A stretch of 64,000 nucleotides of DNA from Oceanicola sp. 22II-s10i (GTDB taxonomy: Bacteria; Pseudomonadota; Alphaproteobacteria; Rhodobacterales; Rhodobacteraceae). The translations under genes were made by a program, and so were the position numbers. How positions within the stretch are numbered: position 1 is the stretch's first letter; each line of letters opens with the position of its first letter. The stretch covers positions 248,001 through 312,000 of the forward strand of contig NZ_AQQU01000006.1 of the NCBI RefSeq assembly GCF_002210105.1. The letters are read 5' to 3'. Of the stretch, positions 6,482-11,569 are shown in pieces. The notes beneath the pieces were generated by a model that made no database searches, was not told the DNA's origin, and saw nothing but the letters and a program-made list of their open reading frames with translations.

Positions 6482-7549
6482 TCAGGCCATCCCGCCCTTC
6501 ACCAGCCGGTCGGCCAGTTGCGCATAGGCCTGCGCCATCGGCCCGTCCCCCGCGGCGATCGGCGTGCCGGCATCGCCCGCCAGCCGGGTGTCGAGATCGA
6601 GCGGCAGCGCCCCGAGGAACGGCACGCCGATCCGCTCGGCCTCGGCCGCGACACCGCCGTGACCGAAGGGGTGGCTTTCGTGTCCGCAGTTCGGGCAGAC
6701 GAAGCTCGCCATGTTCTCGATCAGCCCCAGCACCGGGGTCTTGAGCGTGTTGAACATGTCGATGGCCTTGCGCGCGTCGATCAAGGCCACGTCCTGCGGG
6801 GTCGAAACGACCAGCGCCCCGGTCATCGCCGCGCGCTGGCATAATGTAAGCTGCACGTCACCGGTCCCCGGAGGCAGGTCGACGATCAGCACGTCCAGTT
6901 CGCCCCAGGCCACCTGCCCCAGCATCTGCTGGAGCGCCCCCATCAGCATCGGCCCGCGCCAGACCACCGCCTTGCCCTCGTCCACCATAAGGCCGATCGA
7001 CATCATGGTGACGCCATGCGCGTGCTTGGGTTCGATGATCTTGCCGTCGGGAGACGCGGGCCGCCCCGAGACACCCATCATGCGCGGTTGCGACGGACCG
7101 TATATATCGGCGTCCAGCAGACCGACCTTGCGCCCGGCCTTGGCCAGCGCCACGGCAAGGTTCGCGCTGACCGTCGATTTGCCGACCCCGCCCTTGCCGG
7201 AGGCAACGGCGAGGATACGGTCAACGCCGGCCGGTCGCATCGGCCCGGCCTGAGGCGTCGGATGGCCGCCGATCTTGAGCCCCTGCGGCGGCGCCTTCTG
7301 CGCGGCGGGTCCATGCGCCGTCAGCGCCACCTGCACCCTGCCGACACCCGGCATCGCGGCAATCGCCGCCTCGGCTGCGGCGCGGACCGGCTCCATCGCA
7401 CGGGCCGACTCGGGGGTCGGCGCCTCGATCACGAAACGAACCGAGTCGCCCTCGACCGCAAGCGCCCGGATCATGTCACGCGAAACGAGGTCGCCGCCGT
7501 CGGGCAGCCCGACCTTCGATAACGTGGCGTAAATCTGATCCTTGGTCAT
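6482..7549 (-). CDS. mrp: Mrp/ApbC-type iron-sulfur cluster carrier ATPase
   Basis: P-loop NTPase (355 aa) of the Mrp/NBP35 family, thought to carry and deliver Fe-S clusters. An N-terminal MIP18/DUF59 domain (about 1-85) precedes a deviant Walker [11 protein letters not shown] (about 118-127). [11 protein letters not shown] and the cluster-binding CxxC in [14 protein letters not shown] follow. A good ribosome-binding site (GAGGAG, 8 nt) supports the ATG start. It is followed closely by the GNAT gene, and its leader contains the inverted repeat at 7566-7591. Confidence 0.92.
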
Positions 7550-7565
7550 GGTTCCGACTCCTCAT

Positions 7566-7591
7566 TGTGCAACCGGCAGACGACTTGCACA
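7566..7591. promoter_or_regulatory. Inverted repeat TGTGCAA-N12-TTGCACA
   Basis: Perfect 7-bp arms separated by 12 nt, lying 17 bp before the mrp start codon in the divergent mrp/DUF1127 gap. It could be an operator for a dimeric regulator or a leader hairpin of mrp. A further half-site-like TTGTGCA is at 7700-7706. The regulator is unknown. Confidence 0.35.
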
Positions 7592-7699
7592 GACCATGGG
7601 CTGTTTCCGAACGGAAAGCGGAAAATCCAGCGATTTCAACTACCGTTAGGTCAACATTGCGTATGCATTTGCTGCATGGCGGCATTGACGAACCGTTCA

Positions 7700-7727
7700 T
7701 TGTGCAGGCGCAGCAATTTGCTATCTT
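7700..7727 (+). promoter_or_regulatory. Candidate promoter for DUF1127 and the sRNA array
   Basis: TTGTGC (7700-7705), a 16-nt spacer and TATCTT (7722-7727) resemble a promoter reading toward the DUF1127 gene, about 70 bp upstream of its start. In Rhodobacter sphaeroides the equivalent operon is driven by heat-shock-type sigma factors (RpoHI/RpoHII). I cannot tell from the sequence which sigma factor applies here. Confidence 0.4.
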
Positions 7728-7798
7728 CAGTCTCAACAGACGGCACAACGGAGCACGCTCCGGCCGCCGCAGAGAAGACATGAAGGCTAGACGACCAA

Positions 7799-8017
7799 AT
7801 GGCAATGATCACTGAAACCCACGCAGGTGTCTCTTCCGAACAGGGTCTGTTCGCGCGCCTGGCAGAGAAATTCGTTGCAGGCTACAGCCGCTACGCAACC
7901 TACAAACGCACCGTGGCCGAGCTGTCGATGCTCAACGACCGCGAACTGCGGGACTTCGGCGCCAACCGCTCGATGATCCGCTCCATGGCTTACGAGCAGG
8001 CCTACCGCTCGATGTAA
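7799..8017 (+). CDS. DUF1127 small protein (CcaF1-like)
   Basis: A 72-aa basic protein with the DUF1127 signature near its end: TVAELSMLNDRELRDFGANRSMI. In Rhodobacter sphaeroides the homologous DUF1127 protein CcaF1 binds RNA and acts in maturation of the CcsR sRNAs encoded just downstream; the same arrangement occurs here with six sRNA hairpins. Two possible starts exist (ATG at 7799 and 7805). An 11-codon frame (7780-7815, MKARRPNGNDH) overlaps the start and may modulate its translation. Confidence 0.88.
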   Translation: MAMITETHAGVSSEQGLFARLAEKFVAGYSRYATYKRTVAELSMLNDRELRDFGANRSMIRSMAYEQAYRSM

Positions 8018-8027
8018 ATTCCGGGAT

Positions 8028-8060
8028 CAGAAGGCCCTCTCCTCCTCCCTGGGTCTTCTG
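8028..8060 (+). ncRNA. Cuckoo/CcsR-type sRNA hairpin, copy 1
   Basis: The loop motif CTCTCCTCCTCCCTGG (8037-8052) is enclosed by CAGAAG...CTTCTG arms. It begins 11 bp after the DUF1127 stop. The CCUCCUCCC loop can pair with purine-rich (anti-SD-complementary) sequences and defines the Cuckoo RNA family of Alphaproteobacteria. Processing ends are not known. Confidence 0.85.
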
Positions 8061-8067
8061 TGAACTC

Positions 8068-8102
8068 GCGGCGGCACCTCTCCTCCTCCCTGGTGTCGCC
8101 GC
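8068..8102 (+). ncRNA. Cuckoo/CcsR-type sRNA hairpin, copy 2
   Basis: Same 16-nt loop motif at 8078-8093. The stem is 11 bp (8068-8078 with 8092-8102) with one G-U pair. A separate small hairpin (GAGGCA...TGCCTC, 8114-8131) lies between this copy and the next and may be part of a mature RNA. Confidence 0.85.
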
Positions 8103-8140
8103 ATCTTATCCCCGAGGCAGGGTCATGCCTCAGACAGAAT

Positions 8141-8173
8141 GCGCCGGTCCTCTCCTCCTCCCTGGGCCGGTTG
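8141..8173 (+). ncRNA. Cuckoo/CcsR-type sRNA hairpin, copy 3
   Basis: Loop motif at 8150-8165, identical to the other copies. The stem has a CCGG core (8144-8150 with 8164-8170) and weaker outer pairs. Arm sequence differs from copies 1 and 2 while pairing is kept, which supports an RNA function. Confidence 0.85.
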
Positions 8174-8181
8174 CTGCAAGA

Positions 8182-8216
8182 CCGGCGGTGCCTCTCCTCC
8201 TCCCTGGCACCGTCGG
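8182..8216 (+). ncRNA. Cuckoo/CcsR-type sRNA hairpin, copy 4
   Basis: Loop motif at 8192-8207. The 11-bp stem (8182-8192 with 8206-8216, arm CCGGCGGTGCC) has a single G-U pair. The stretch between copies 4 and 5 contains another hairpin (CTTGC...GCAAG enclosing GAGCG-TTA-CGCTC). Confidence 0.85.
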
Positions 8217-8252
8217 AACTTGCAGGCGAAAAGAGCGTTACGCTCGCAAGGA

Positions 8253-8285
8253 TCGGTGACCCTCTCCTCCTCCCTGGGCACCGAG
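8253..8285 (+). ncRNA. Cuckoo/CcsR-type sRNA hairpin, copy 5
   Basis: Loop motif at 8262-8277. The stem TCGGTG/CACCGA (8253-8258 with 8279-8284) has one mismatch near the loop. The loop is identical to the other five copies. Confidence 0.85.
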
Positions 8286-8291
8286 AAATGG

Positions 8292-8328
8292 AACGGCGGT
8301 GCCTCTCCTCCTCCCTGGCACCGCCGTT
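8292..8328 (+). ncRNA. Cuckoo/CcsR-type sRNA hairpin, copy 6
   Basis: Loop motif at 8303-8318 with the longest stem, a 12-bp perfect arm AACGGCGGTGCC (8292-8303 with 8317-8328). It is followed by TTTTCCTTTTTT, so this copy may itself terminate some transcripts before the stronger terminator at 8360. Confidence 0.85.
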
Positions 8329-8359
8329 TTCCTTTTTTCAGACTCCTGAAAACGAAAAA

Positions 8360-8385
8360 GACGGCCCGAGGGCCGTCTCTTTTTC
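8360..8385 (+). terminator. Rho-independent terminator of the DUF1127-sRNA operon
   Basis: GACGGCC-CGAG-GGCCGTC stem with a stable tetraloop, then a T-rich tract. It closes the sRNA array and lies just before the convergent bphP stop. Read on the minus strand it is preceded by AAAAAG (complement TTTTT), so it may work in both directions. Confidence 0.85.
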
Positions 8386-8408
8386 TTCATTGACCGAGTG
8401 ACCGCCCC

Positions 8409-10979
8409 CTAGTCGGGGCCTGCGCTGAATGCGACGGCCAGCGTTTCGATGCTGAACGGCTTCTGCACCATCCGCGCGGGCGGATAGCTCTCCACGATCT
8501 CGGATGTCTCGCCATAGCCCGTCGCCAGCACGAACGGGATGCCAAGCGCATGAAGCCGCTCGGCCACGGTCACCGACTGCTCGGCCCCGAGGTTGATGTC
8601 CAGCAGGGCGAAAGCCGGGGGATCGCGGTCGATTTCCTGCATGGCCTGCTCGACGGACGAGGCGATGGCGACCTTGGAGGCACCCATTTCCTCGAGCATC
8701 GCCGCCGCATCCATCGCGATGATCAGCGCATCCTCCAGCACCAGCCCGTTGCCGCTGAGACGGATCATGTTCGACAGTGCCGGCTGGGGGGTGGCATCCC
8801 GCGAGTCGTCGTCCTCGCGGCGAATCCGGTCGATATGGCGCGGCGGGATGCGGAAATGCGCCTCGACCCCGGTGGTCTTGTAAGACACCTCGGCATCCCC
8901 CTGCAGTTCATGCGGAATCGAACGTTCGAGAATCGTCGTGCCAAAGCCCCTGCGGCTCGGCGGGCGGACGGGCGGGCCGCCCTTTTCCACCCAGTCGATA
9001 TTCAGCCCGCCGCTGCGGTCCTGCCGCAGGCTGATCTCGACCCGCCCCGCCTGATCGCAGAGCGCGCCGTATTTCAGCGAGTTGGTCGCCATCTCGTGCA
9101 GGACCAGCGCCATCGTCGTATAGGCCGCCGGAGAGATCATCGCATCCGGACCGTCGATCAGGACCCGTGCTGATTTTGCCTGGGCGTAGGCTTCGAATTC
9201 GCAGTGGATCAGCGCCTTGAGCGAGGACGGTTCCCACTTCTCGCTGGTCAGCTGGTCGTGGGCGCGGGCCAGCGACTGGATGCGTCCGTCAAGGCTGTCG
9301 GTGAAATCCGTCAGGCTGCGCGCGCCGCTGCTGGACTGGGACACCAGCCCCCGCATCAGGTTCAGGATGTTGCGAACCCGGTGGTTGAGTTCGGAAATCA
9401 GCAGCTGCTGCTGTTCCTGCGCCCGCTTGCGTTCGCCGTTGGCGGCATCGGTGATCTTCAGGAAGATCTCCAGCAGGACGATGCGCAGCCGCTCGGCGAC
9501 GTGGTTGTCCTGGACCGACCAGGGGGCCGACCTGCCCTCGACCGTCTCGGTCCAGACCTCGAAGCTCTTGCGCGGGGTCAGGCGGGTGCCGTTCGGACCG
9601 AGGGTCGCGGGCTTGGCCGGATCGCCGGCCCAGTTGACCTTGGACGCAATCGGCTTGCGGAACAGGATCAGGTAGTCGCGCGGCCGGCGCGAGATCGGGA
9701 TCGCCAGCATCCCGGACGCCCGGTTCATGTAATCGCGGGCATCCGGCAGCAGCCGGGACAGGCTGTCGCTGGCGAACACCGACGGACCGGCGCGTGTATC
9801 CAGCATCCGAGCGATCTTGCGGAACTCTTCCTCGGTCGGGACGCTGCCGGTGGCGGTAAAGGTCTCGTCCAGATAAAGGACCATCCCGTCATGGCTTACG
9901 GACCGGCCAATGTCGCGCGAGACGGAGAACAGGGTCTCCGACAGACCCCGCCCCTCGGCCAGATTCGCCATCAGCGCGGTCTGCATCCGGCCGCTTTCGT
10001 CCTGCGCCTTCAGTCGGAACGACTCCTCCTGCCGGCTGATCTCGTAGGAGAACATGTGCCCGAACATCTCGATCGCCGTGCGGCGCTCGTAGTCGATGTA
10101 GCGCGAACTGTCGTGGTGGCAGGCGAACAGCCCCCACAACTCGCCGTTTCGGAGGATAGAGACGGACATCGACGCGCCGACGCCCATGTTCTTGAGGTAT
10201 TCAATATGGATGGGCGAAACGGCGCGGGTGACGGCCAGAGACAGGTCGATCGGGCTGCCGTCCAGGCTGAGTTGCGGCTCGATCATCGAACCGTCGTCCT
10301 CGACATCGGCGATCAGCCGCAGCAGGGACCGGCGATAAAGCTCGCGCGCCTGCGCGGGGATGTCCGACGCGGGAAAGTTCAGCCCCATATAACGCGACTG
10401 CCCGTCCGCCCGGTCCTCGGCGATGACACGTCCGGACTTGTCGGGTTGAAACTGGTAGACCATCACGCTGTCGAAACCCGACAGCATCCGCAGCCCGCGC
10501 GCGGCCTCTCGGGCGAGGTCCGGCAGCTCGTTCAGCCCCTTCAGCCTGTTCAGGCAGGGATAGACCTCGGACATGACGTCGGCTTCGCGGGGGCCGGCCT
10601 TGGGCTCGAACTCGATGATCAGGTGACGCCCGCTCTGGTGCACGGACACGTCGAACAGCTTGTCCTGTCCGCGCAGGACGATGCCGAACAGCCGCACCGC
10701 CCCGTCACGGCCTTCCAGCGCGCCCATGTTGCGGCGGATGCGGTCCATCGCATCGGACACGATCAGCTCGGACAGGGGACGGCCAAGCGCCTCTTCCACC
10801 TCGAAGCCCAGCACCGCGGGCAGGTTGTCGGAAGCGTGCTGCACTAGCCAGTCGGACGAAAGCGCCAGAAGGGCGCCATAGGACTGGACACGGCCCAGAA
10901 GGTGGATCGGTTCACGATCGCAGTTCGTCAGGTCGACAGCCTGTTCGGCGGACTGACCTGCAGAAGGGTGGGAAGTCAC
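8409..10979 (-). CDS. bphP: Bacteriophytochrome HWE histidine kinase with C-terminal receiver
   Basis: Red/far-red photoreceptor kinase (856 aa). Order: PAS (about 20-120) with the biliverdin-attachment Cys20 in TNCDREPIHLLG; GAF (about 145-310) with the PASDIP motif; PHY (to about 505) with the tongue motif PRKSF; an HWE-type kinase with H-box ELNHRVRNILN (His near 532), N-box HEMATNSLKYG and the WVEKGGP tryptophan/glutamate motif; and a receiver domain (about 735-850) with LLDINLG as phosphoacceptor region and VQKPF. The fused receiver resembles the Agp2 architecture. Its ATG overlaps the bphO stop, so chromophore supply and apoprotein are coupled. Confidence 0.93.
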   Translation of the reverse strand: MTSHPSAGQSAEQAVDLTNCDREPIHLLGRVQSYGALLALSSDWLVQHASDNLPAVLGFEVEEALGRPLSELIVSDAMDRIRRNMGALEGRDGAVRLFGIVLRGQDKLFDVSVHQSGRHLIIEFEPKAGPREADVMSEVYPCLNRLKGLNELPDLAREAARGLRMLSGFDSVMVYQFQPDKSGRVIAEDRADGQSRYMGLNFPASDIPAQARELYRRSLLRLIADVEDDGSMIEPQLSLDGSPIDLSLAVTRAVSPIHIEYLKNMGVGASMSVSILRNGELWGLFACHHDSSRYIDYERRTAIEMFGHMFSYEISRQEESFRLKAQDESGRMQTALMANLAEGRGLSETLFSVSRDIGRSVSHDGMVLYLDETFTATGSVPTEEEFRKIARMLDTRAGPSVFASDSLSRLLPDARDYMNRASGMLAIPISRRPRDYLILFRKPIASKVNWAGDPAKPATLGPNGTRLTPRKSFEVWTETVEGRSAPWSVQDNHVAERLRIVLLEIFLKITDAANGERKRAQEQQQLLISELNHRVRNILNLMRGLVSQSSSGARSLTDFTDSLDGRIQSLARAHDQLTSEKWEPSSLKALIHCEFEAYAQAKSARVLIDGPDAMISPAAYTTMALVLHEMATNSLKYGALCDQAGRVEISLRQDRSGGLNIDWVEKGGPPVRPPSRRGFGTTILERSIPHELQGDAEVSYKTTGVEAHFRIPPRHIDRIRREDDDSRDATPQPALSNMIRLSGNGLVLEDALIIAMDAAAMLEEMGASKVAIASSVEQAMQEIDRDPPAFALLDINLGAEQSVTVAERLHALGIPFVLATGYGETSEIVESYPPARMVQKPFSIETLAVAFSAGPD

Positions 10980-11569
10980 ACGAACCCGCCAGTGGACGTT
11001 GCCGATATGGCAGAGGCCCGGATGAAGATGTCAAAGCAGCAGTCGGTGTCCATCACGATGCGGATCGCGCGTTCCGACTCCGGGTCTATTGCGTCCAGCC
11101 GCGCGCACAGATCGCGCCAGTCGCCCCCCGAGCGGTTCGTGAAATAGGACGGCAGCGGGTCGATTCCGCCGGCGAGCAGTTTCCTGCGGATCACCTCGGT
11201 CCCCAGTCCGGAGCCGAGCACGACATAGGCCACCGCCAACGGGTCCAGCCCACGCGGCGCGATCATGTTGTCCGTCGCCGGTATCCCCCACGCCGCACAG
11301 TCCGTCCGCAACGCCGAAACGGCCGCCGCCAGCGCCTCGTCCGTGCCGGACGGCAGACCGCCCAGCGACACACGGGCCAGCGCGCTGAAAGCTGTCAGGT
11401 GAGTTGAGAGAAACGCCGCCATGTGGCCCTTGGGATCCGTCAACACAGATCCCAGCACCTCTTCTGCGCGGTCGTGGGCGGGGCGGGTTGCATCGCGCAG
11501 ATAAAAACGGAAACCCCTGCGCGGGTCTTGTATCGGGCCAAGTCGACCGGCCCCGGCATGTGCGTTCAA
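10976..11569 (-). CDS. bphO: Biliverdin-producing heme oxygenase
   Basis: Heme oxygenase (197 aa) that opens heme to biliverdin IX-alpha, the chromophore of BphP. The proximal-histidine region is LRDATRPAHDRAEEVLG (about residues 27-43), and the distal-helix glycine motif is AYVVLGSGLGTEVIRRK (about 124-140). It is typical of BphO proteins, which are often encoded next to the phytochrome. It heads a two-gene operon with bphP and overlaps it by 4 bp. Confidence 0.88.
   Translation of the reverse strand: MNAHAGAGRLGPIQDPRRGFRFYLRDATRPAHDRAEEVLGSVLTDPKGHMAAFLSTHLTAFSALARVSLGGLPSGTDEALAAAVSALRTDCAAWGIPATDNMIAPRGLDPLAVAYVVLGSGLGTEVIRRKLLAGGIDPLPSYFTNRSGGDWRDLCARLDAIDPESERAIRIVMDTDCCFDIFIRASAISATSTGGFV

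Follow-up and report, generated by a model that had tools for sequence, protein, structure and literature searches.

The 64-kb stretch of DNA analysed here (the window) carries, behind a gene for a DUF1127 protein, a tract of six hairpins having the same loop. What kind of locus is this, into how many RNAs would it be divided, and what controls its promoter?

The hairpin array

The DUF1127 gene, which is ccaF1-like and codes for 72 amino acids, is situated at 7799-8017 of the forward strand. Its product matches PF06568 with 36.2 bits (cutoff 23.3, E = 4.9e-9). The stop codon is separated from the first conserved segment by 19 nt, and the locus has the short DUF1127 gene directly upstream that characterizes CIN1 loci.

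The 16-nt segment CTCTCCTCCTCCCTGG occurs six times without change, always on the forward strand, at 8037, 8078, 8150, 8192, 8262 and 8303, and no further match with up to three mismatches is present elsewhere in the 64-kb window. In shuffled sequence the mean number of matches was 0.79, and six were reached in none of 100 shuffles. Upon folding, every copy forms a hairpin with a loop of 13 nt, giving the array the cuckoo trait of hairpins with a conserved CCUCCUCCC loop. The stems differ in sequence from one hairpin to another; five of the six have uninterrupted runs of 8 to 14 pairs, while the hairpin with the 8262 loop contains a one-base bulge after three pairs. The region 8018-8390 folds with -175.8 kcal/mol (z = -7.6), a stability equalled in none of 100 shuffles. 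The preliminary description had correctly given the six identical loops and their placement in hairpins, the pairing of the dissimilar arms and the DUF1127 gene in front of the loops. Its reading of the loops as anti-Shine-Dalgarno in character was also judged to be right.

The stems were compared in 192 hairpins from 21 loci of the genus (own locus included), 95 being the first and 95 the second of a pair, with two unassigned hairpins omitted; after the removal of duplicates, 73 first-of-pair and 62 second-of-pair hairpins are distinct. At the nine inner positions, 92% of the cells are paired in the first hairpins and 97% in the second. Swapping the arms between hairpins leaves 68% and 79% of the pairs formed (maxima 73% and 82%), and sliding one arm leaves 33-57%. 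Many stem positions have changed on both sides. Because related hairpins are not independent of each other, the size of this effect weighs more than any probability. The comparison indicates that the stems are maintained by pairing and the loop by sequence, and stems that are free in sequence yet paired are a further property of cuckoo RNAs. In favor of regarding the hairpins as a chance GC-rich repeat, or as an element acting at the DNA level without RNA function, one can cite only that GC-rich DNA is in general expected to contain many short inverted repeats. Given that the stems have changed in a compensatory manner while the loop stayed invariant, and given the fixed orientation behind the same gene and the z-score of -7.6, such an origin has a negligible probability.

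The start-to-start distances between the loops are 41, 72, 42, 70 and 41 nt, so that the six hairpins form three pairs. Each pair is matched over the full length of the Rfam model of CcsR1 (RF02791, 83 positions): unit 1, with the loops 8037 and 8078, at 8024-8107 (56.2 bits, E = 5.5e-13); unit 2, with the loops 8150 and 8192, at 8137-8221 (44.5 bits, E = 1.5e-9); and unit 3, with the loops 8262 and 8303, at 8250-8332 (38.7 bits, E = 8.2e-8), all on the forward strand. These matches come from a search in E-value mode, the Rfam search at the gathering threshold giving nothing at the array. All three scores are below the gathering score of 65.3 bits, and the array is therefore not filed under RF02791. 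The covariance-model search that had been suggested for the array thus succeeded in yielding a full-length match to each pair but not in reaching the gathering score. The ar14 model (RF02344) also matches around each loop pair, with 45.1, 44.4 and 43.3 bits, and misses its gathering score of 58.8. The ar14 RNA, or NfeR1, shares the loop motif, but has three hairpins and a gene of its own.

In R. sphaeroides, the RNA RS0680a is described as two stem-loops, each with an anti-Shine-Dalgarno motif (PMC3927594). This precedent, together with the full-length RF02791 match to each pair, points to a series of three two-hairpin units. The earlier count of six RNAs is very probably wrong, since the loops are paired and the model fits each pair. 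The cuckoo family of Reinkensmeier and Giegerich (2015), in the description given by PMC4504443, has in common with the array the free stems and the conserved loop. Its members have two to four hairpins per RNA, whereas here six are found in a single tract, for which both the spacing and the Rfam matches point to three times two. That this is a locus of the cuckoo/CcsR type following a DUF1127 gene is borne out by the loops, the hairpins, PF06568 and the RF02791 match to each pair. The locus is almost certainly an array of the ccaF1-CcsR ("cuckoo") type in a relative of Pseudooceanicola, and from its sequence it is best read as a ccaF1-CcsR operon of three units. The array itself is a further example of an already known kind.

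Small hairpins are seen at 8114-8131 and 8233-8245, in the spacers separating the three units; they could be processing signals. A T-rich run follows directly behind the last hairpin of unit 3, and an intrinsic-terminator-like stem with a T-run occupies 8359-8378 of the forward strand (eight pairs, six of them G-C, a loop of four, tail CTTTTTCTTC). Of the strong terminator previously assigned to the end of the array, the stem and T-run are present, but the terminator scan over 6500-10000 found no excess (two sites against a shuffle mean of 2.1). Convergent with the array, the reverse strand encodes at 8412-10979 a bacteriophytochrome-like histidine kinase with PAS_2, GAF, PHY and HWE kinase domains; a receiver match in this kinase is slightly under its cutoff. 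The adjoining ORF at 10976-11569 is heme oxygenase-like by eye.

Number and spacing of loops among relatives

As far as its published description goes, the CIN1-type locus ccaF1-CcsR1-4 of R. sphaeroides likewise consists of a DUF1127 gene of 71-72 amino acids, RNAs in tandem whose loops are of the CCUCCUCCC type, and a terminator (PMC10253847). It has four units as compared to three here, and the six loops, which had been taken for an enlarged array, thus represent a smaller one.

A DUF1127 protein was matched at E <= 0.001 in 108 of the 194 genomes searched (own included), among them 20 of 21 genus mates, and all 20 have an array behind the gene. Counting exact CCTCCTCCC only, with some contigs cut, one of these 20 arrays has 5 loops, seven have 6 and twelve have 9-16. 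A second sample consists of 80 named DUF1127 loci, about ten of them from the same genomes as the genus mates. They are the best-scoring 80 of at least 309 that were confirmed, and therefore lean to close relatives. In this sample six loops is the commonest number (14 of 80), 32 of the 80 have more, and in five no loop is found by exact match. At least one loop pair is present in 304 of 395 family genomes, with at most 17 pattern matches in any one genome. A six-loop array is therefore ordinary for the family and low for the genus. An enlargement is rejected, twelve of the 20 genus mates and 32 of the best 80 of at least 309 named loci having more loops. A giant tract in the family genome G250 (L165) has, in a span of 1.5 kb from the upstream element, 24 loops in near-identical repeated units. 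The natural arrays of 5 to 16 loops in the genus provide material for studying the effect of unit number.

The spacing is regular in the genus, mostly 38-43 nt within pairs and 45-79 nt between pairs, and at the named loci most gaps between loops fall within 37-46 or 62-79 nt, which is what pairs would give. The pairing of hairpins is not universal: some arrays, among them L106, L130, L132 and L146, have a nearly even spacing of 34-46 nt, or mostly so. This even spacing in some relatives, the position of all six hairpins in a single tract and the T-rich sequence behind the last of them are consistent with an uncut 3' UTR that would act as one six-loop sponge or protect the DUF1127 mRNA. The regular pairing in the window and the genus and the full-length CcsR1 match to each pair argue against this, as does the precedent of R. 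sphaeroides, where processing by RNase E into CcsR1-4 is reported (PMC10253847, PMC7866481). An uncut UTR is thus improbable, and the three-unit reading is retained below.

The upstream element

The alignment of 14 upstream regions from the genus contains one block that is far better conserved than its surroundings. It consists of a core, TGCATRGCNGCATTG, followed after 11-12 nt by ATTGTGCA-NN-YGCAG. In the window, the site TGCATGGCGGCATTG at 7673-7687 (forward strand) agrees in 14 of 15 positions with the reverse complement of the Brucella VtlR motif as published (PMC12595884), and may be called a VtlR/LsrB-type operator-like site. It is the sole site in the 64-kb window with up to two mismatches to that motif, and the only TGCATRGCNGCATTG site without mismatch in the 5.1-Mb genome. 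Nine more have one mismatch; apart from the site in front of the L244 ORF (see below), the one-mismatch sites, judged by their short flanks, are probably chance. With respect to the form GCAT-N3-TG-N3-T, the window site has G in place of the T of TG; 64 of 73 element sites at named loci deviate solely at that T and four fit fully, in a count for which the search expression itself prescribed parts of the core.

The left end of the site is overlapped by a box of the form TGCA-N6-GCAT at 7664-7677 (forward strand), which recurs at the corresponding position in 57 of the 75 element rows of the alignment. The same form is described for the ar14 RNA NfeR1, whose promoter has it near -72 to -60 as the site of LsrB (PMC10746234), suggesting a similar function here. 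A putative core promoter, TTGTGC-N16-TATCTT, lies at 7700-7727 of the forward strand and is recognized by its position in the conserved block, a sigma-70 consensus scan having given nothing at 7700-7727. The TTG was required by the search expression; the GC following it was not, and is kept in all 73 aligned upstream regions, while the -10 side is looser. Transcription would start at about 7733-7735. With a start at about 7734, the GCAT core would fall at about -60 to -48, nearly where the LsrB box of abcR1 is reported (-61 to -49; PMC8844928).

The published Brucella motif, allowing two mismatches, occurs within 260 nt upstream of 54 of the 80 named DUF1127 loci (the best 80 of at least 309), in none of 78 stretches further upstream and in none of 80 when the motif is reversed. 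This test is independent of the bias in constructing the long element pattern, which was written after both loci of the own genome and the genus alignment and matches there without mismatch by construction. A loose form of the element is present upstream of 73 of the 80 loci, with zero of 78 and zero of 80 in the same two controls; as this expression fixes several bases, the invariance of those bases is uninformative. The seven loci that it missed include some with clearly related sequence. A stricter pattern with 12-nt spacing was found, at up to two mismatches, in 35 of the 80 loci and in neither control.

For R. sphaeroides, published work describes an RpoHI/RpoHII promoter (PMC10253847, PMC3320616), the first of these accounts, in the parts available, mentioning no LysR regulator. 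In the window, the putative core TTGTGC-N16-TATCTT may be of the RpoH or of a housekeeping type. The array being as described, the upstream element might belong to an RpoHI/RpoHII promoter or be bound by a different regulator. The element's second half does coincide with the putative -35, and -10 sequences resembling CCATGTT are found at some loci (L096, L101 and L124). However, TGCATRGCNGCATTG begins some 27 nt ahead of the putative -35, beyond the limits of a core promoter, and this part fits the VtlR motif, as far as published, far above the controls. Furthermore, only two loci in the 5.1 Mb of the own genome have the full element free of mismatches, and both are of the cuckoo kind: the array and, on another contig (C24), a lone ar14-type RNA. 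A third match, with three mismatches, looks like chance. An origin of the element in the RpoH promoter or with another regulator is therefore possible but rather doubtful, and a VtlR/LsrB-type site is preferred.

With up to two mismatches allowed, the element is present in 134 of the 296 genomes of the family, the control counts being zero among the rows listed. When the element alone served as the query, 28 of 30 fetched loci had CCTCCTCCC loops downstream; the other two (L166 and L175) are both two-mismatch sites. Of 120 control stretches taken at trxB loci, each 1.5 kb long, one had such a loop.

The lone RNA is on the reverse strand of the 6.2-kb contig C24 (L001, 1411-1532) and scores 68.9 bits with RF02344, above gathering. 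It shares the promoter element of the array, and its terminator-like hairpin carries a CCACCTCCC loop. The Pfam search of the genome gave no DUF1127 match on this contig. A relative with 75% identity over 85% of the query is found on the 111-kb plasmid pTPRO7 of Salipiger profundus (L264, 2001-2227), having loops at 2124 and 2162 and a GCATAGCTGCATTG core at 2045, 79 nt before the first loop. The PLSDB table, which holds no RNA genes, lists no gene there, and the search of distant plasmid DNA for the lone RNA returned Salipiger and Yoonia records only. At 16 ar14-type loci of the class (own omitted), a search for TGCA-N6-GCAW in the 420 nt before the first loop was mostly negative. Five of them have no loop by the pattern used, nine have a loop without the box (one with a loose form), and two, both from one Rhodobacteraceae genome, contain the box twice.

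Two other DUF1127 genes of the own genome are without a VtlR-type site. On contig C12 (L244, 1603-1824), a 73-aa DUF1127-like ORF lies behind a one-mismatch VtlR-type site and in front of a histidine-rich ORF resembling ureE by eye. Profile comparison with DUF1127 gave a probability of 55.7 (E = 1.1e-4). Neither Pfam (E <= 1) nor NCBIfam (E <= 0.01) gives a match to the ORF, which is for this reason considered only a weak third target.

A candidate LysR regulator

The VtlR/LsrB regulon is described from Brucella, Agrobacterium and Sinorhizobium as one in which a LysR protein acts on sRNAs and, in the case of Brucella, also on DUF1127 genes (PMC7486931, PMC12595884); Brucella VtlR is reported to regulate positively AbcR2 and three DUF1127 genes (PMC12595884). 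The neighborhood given for lsrB/vtlR is beside trxB (PMC11975290, PMC7486931). A LysR gene beside trxB was recognized in six of 30 trxB loci fetched from genomes of the class, using a motif expression that may miss others. With one of these proteins as the query in eight genomes, one outstanding LysR was found in each of the six Rhodobacteraceae genomes among them, with 46-52% identity as compared to 30-32% for the next best protein of each genome.

In the own genome the corresponding gene is at C36:120698-121567 (L253, 1504-2424), on the same contig as the window. The helix-turn-helix of its product is identical to that of the trxB-linked query in 54 of 62 residues, as opposed to 22-23 in four paralogues. 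Over its length the protein is identical to the trxB-linked LysR of S. meliloti in 114 of 293 residues (about 39%) and to the annotated VtlR of R. leguminosarum in about 42%, with 46 of 60 helix-turn-helix residues in either case. The only solved relative at E <= 1e-30 is 9HH1, the LsrB of a study on A. tumefaciens. The gene is not beside trxB, the trxB-lysR synteny being absent from the own genome. The own trxB keeps an Lrp-like neighbor (by eye), as in two Rhizobiales records. The region behind the trxB-linked LysR gene of S. meliloti contains only weak 15-bp sites, with 3-4 mismatches.

LsrB has been stated to be unique to Rhizobiales (PMC11975290), while VtlR/LsrB is elsewhere called conserved in many Alphaproteobacteria (PMC7486931). 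As far as these statements go, the Rhodobacteraceae results speak against the former and agree with the latter. Judged by operator-like site and gene, a VtlR/LsrB-type LysR probably controls the ccaF1-CcsR operons here. In the openly licensed papers searched, no description of the VtlR/LsrB regulon extending to CcsR arrays, and none of VtlR/LsrB control of ccaF1-CcsR loci, was found. Those joining VtlR and DUF1127 concern Brucella and Agrobacterium only, LsrB appears together with CcaF1 only in a reference list, and none of the matches listed has LsrB or VtlR together with CcsR. By title, none of the matches listed for the promoter element strings is on the element.

An operon of the ccaF1-CcsR type with three units and a VtlR/LsrB-type switch is very probably the best overall explanation. 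The cellular steps below are modelled on R. sphaeroides, as described in PMC10253847, PMC8307010 and PMC7866481, and on what is published for Rhizobiales and Brucella. Stress would alter the activity of the LysR protein, which, bound at 7664-7687, would switch an RpoH-like or housekeeping-like core promoter, so that the operon is transcribed. A single transcript from about 7734 would comprise the DUF1127 gene and the three tandem two-hairpin RNAs and end at the terminator. On the R. sphaeroides model, RNase E would cut the 3' part into three CcsR RNAs with the help of the DUF1127 protein. The two CCUCCUCCC loops of each RNA may then pair with purine-rich ribosome-binding sites, which would lower the translation or stability of the target mRNAs, and several equal units would supply a larger dose of the same loop. 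From the loop, the repression or titration of many mRNAs proposed earlier is plausible.

The significance of the locus lies in its promoter, that is, in one operator-like sequence and one gene, the array being ordinary for the family. The wider proposal is that across the Rhodobacteraceae a VtlR/LsrB-type LysR is the dedicated master switch of loci for DUF1127 proteins and cuckoo RNAs. One old alphaproteobacterial circuit, in which a redox LysR controls a DUF1127 protein and anti-Shine-Dalgarno RNAs, would then underlie both the sRNA-DUF1127 regulon of Brucella and Sinorhizobium and the CcsR stress response of R. sphaeroides. This proposal is held with slightly more belief than doubt. It offers a named candidate regulator for the stress induction of CcsR RNAs and, if true, would join the literature on VtlR/LsrB, DUF1127 and AbcR/NfeR in Rhizobiales to that on the RpoH-driven ccaF1-CcsR operon of Rhodobacter.
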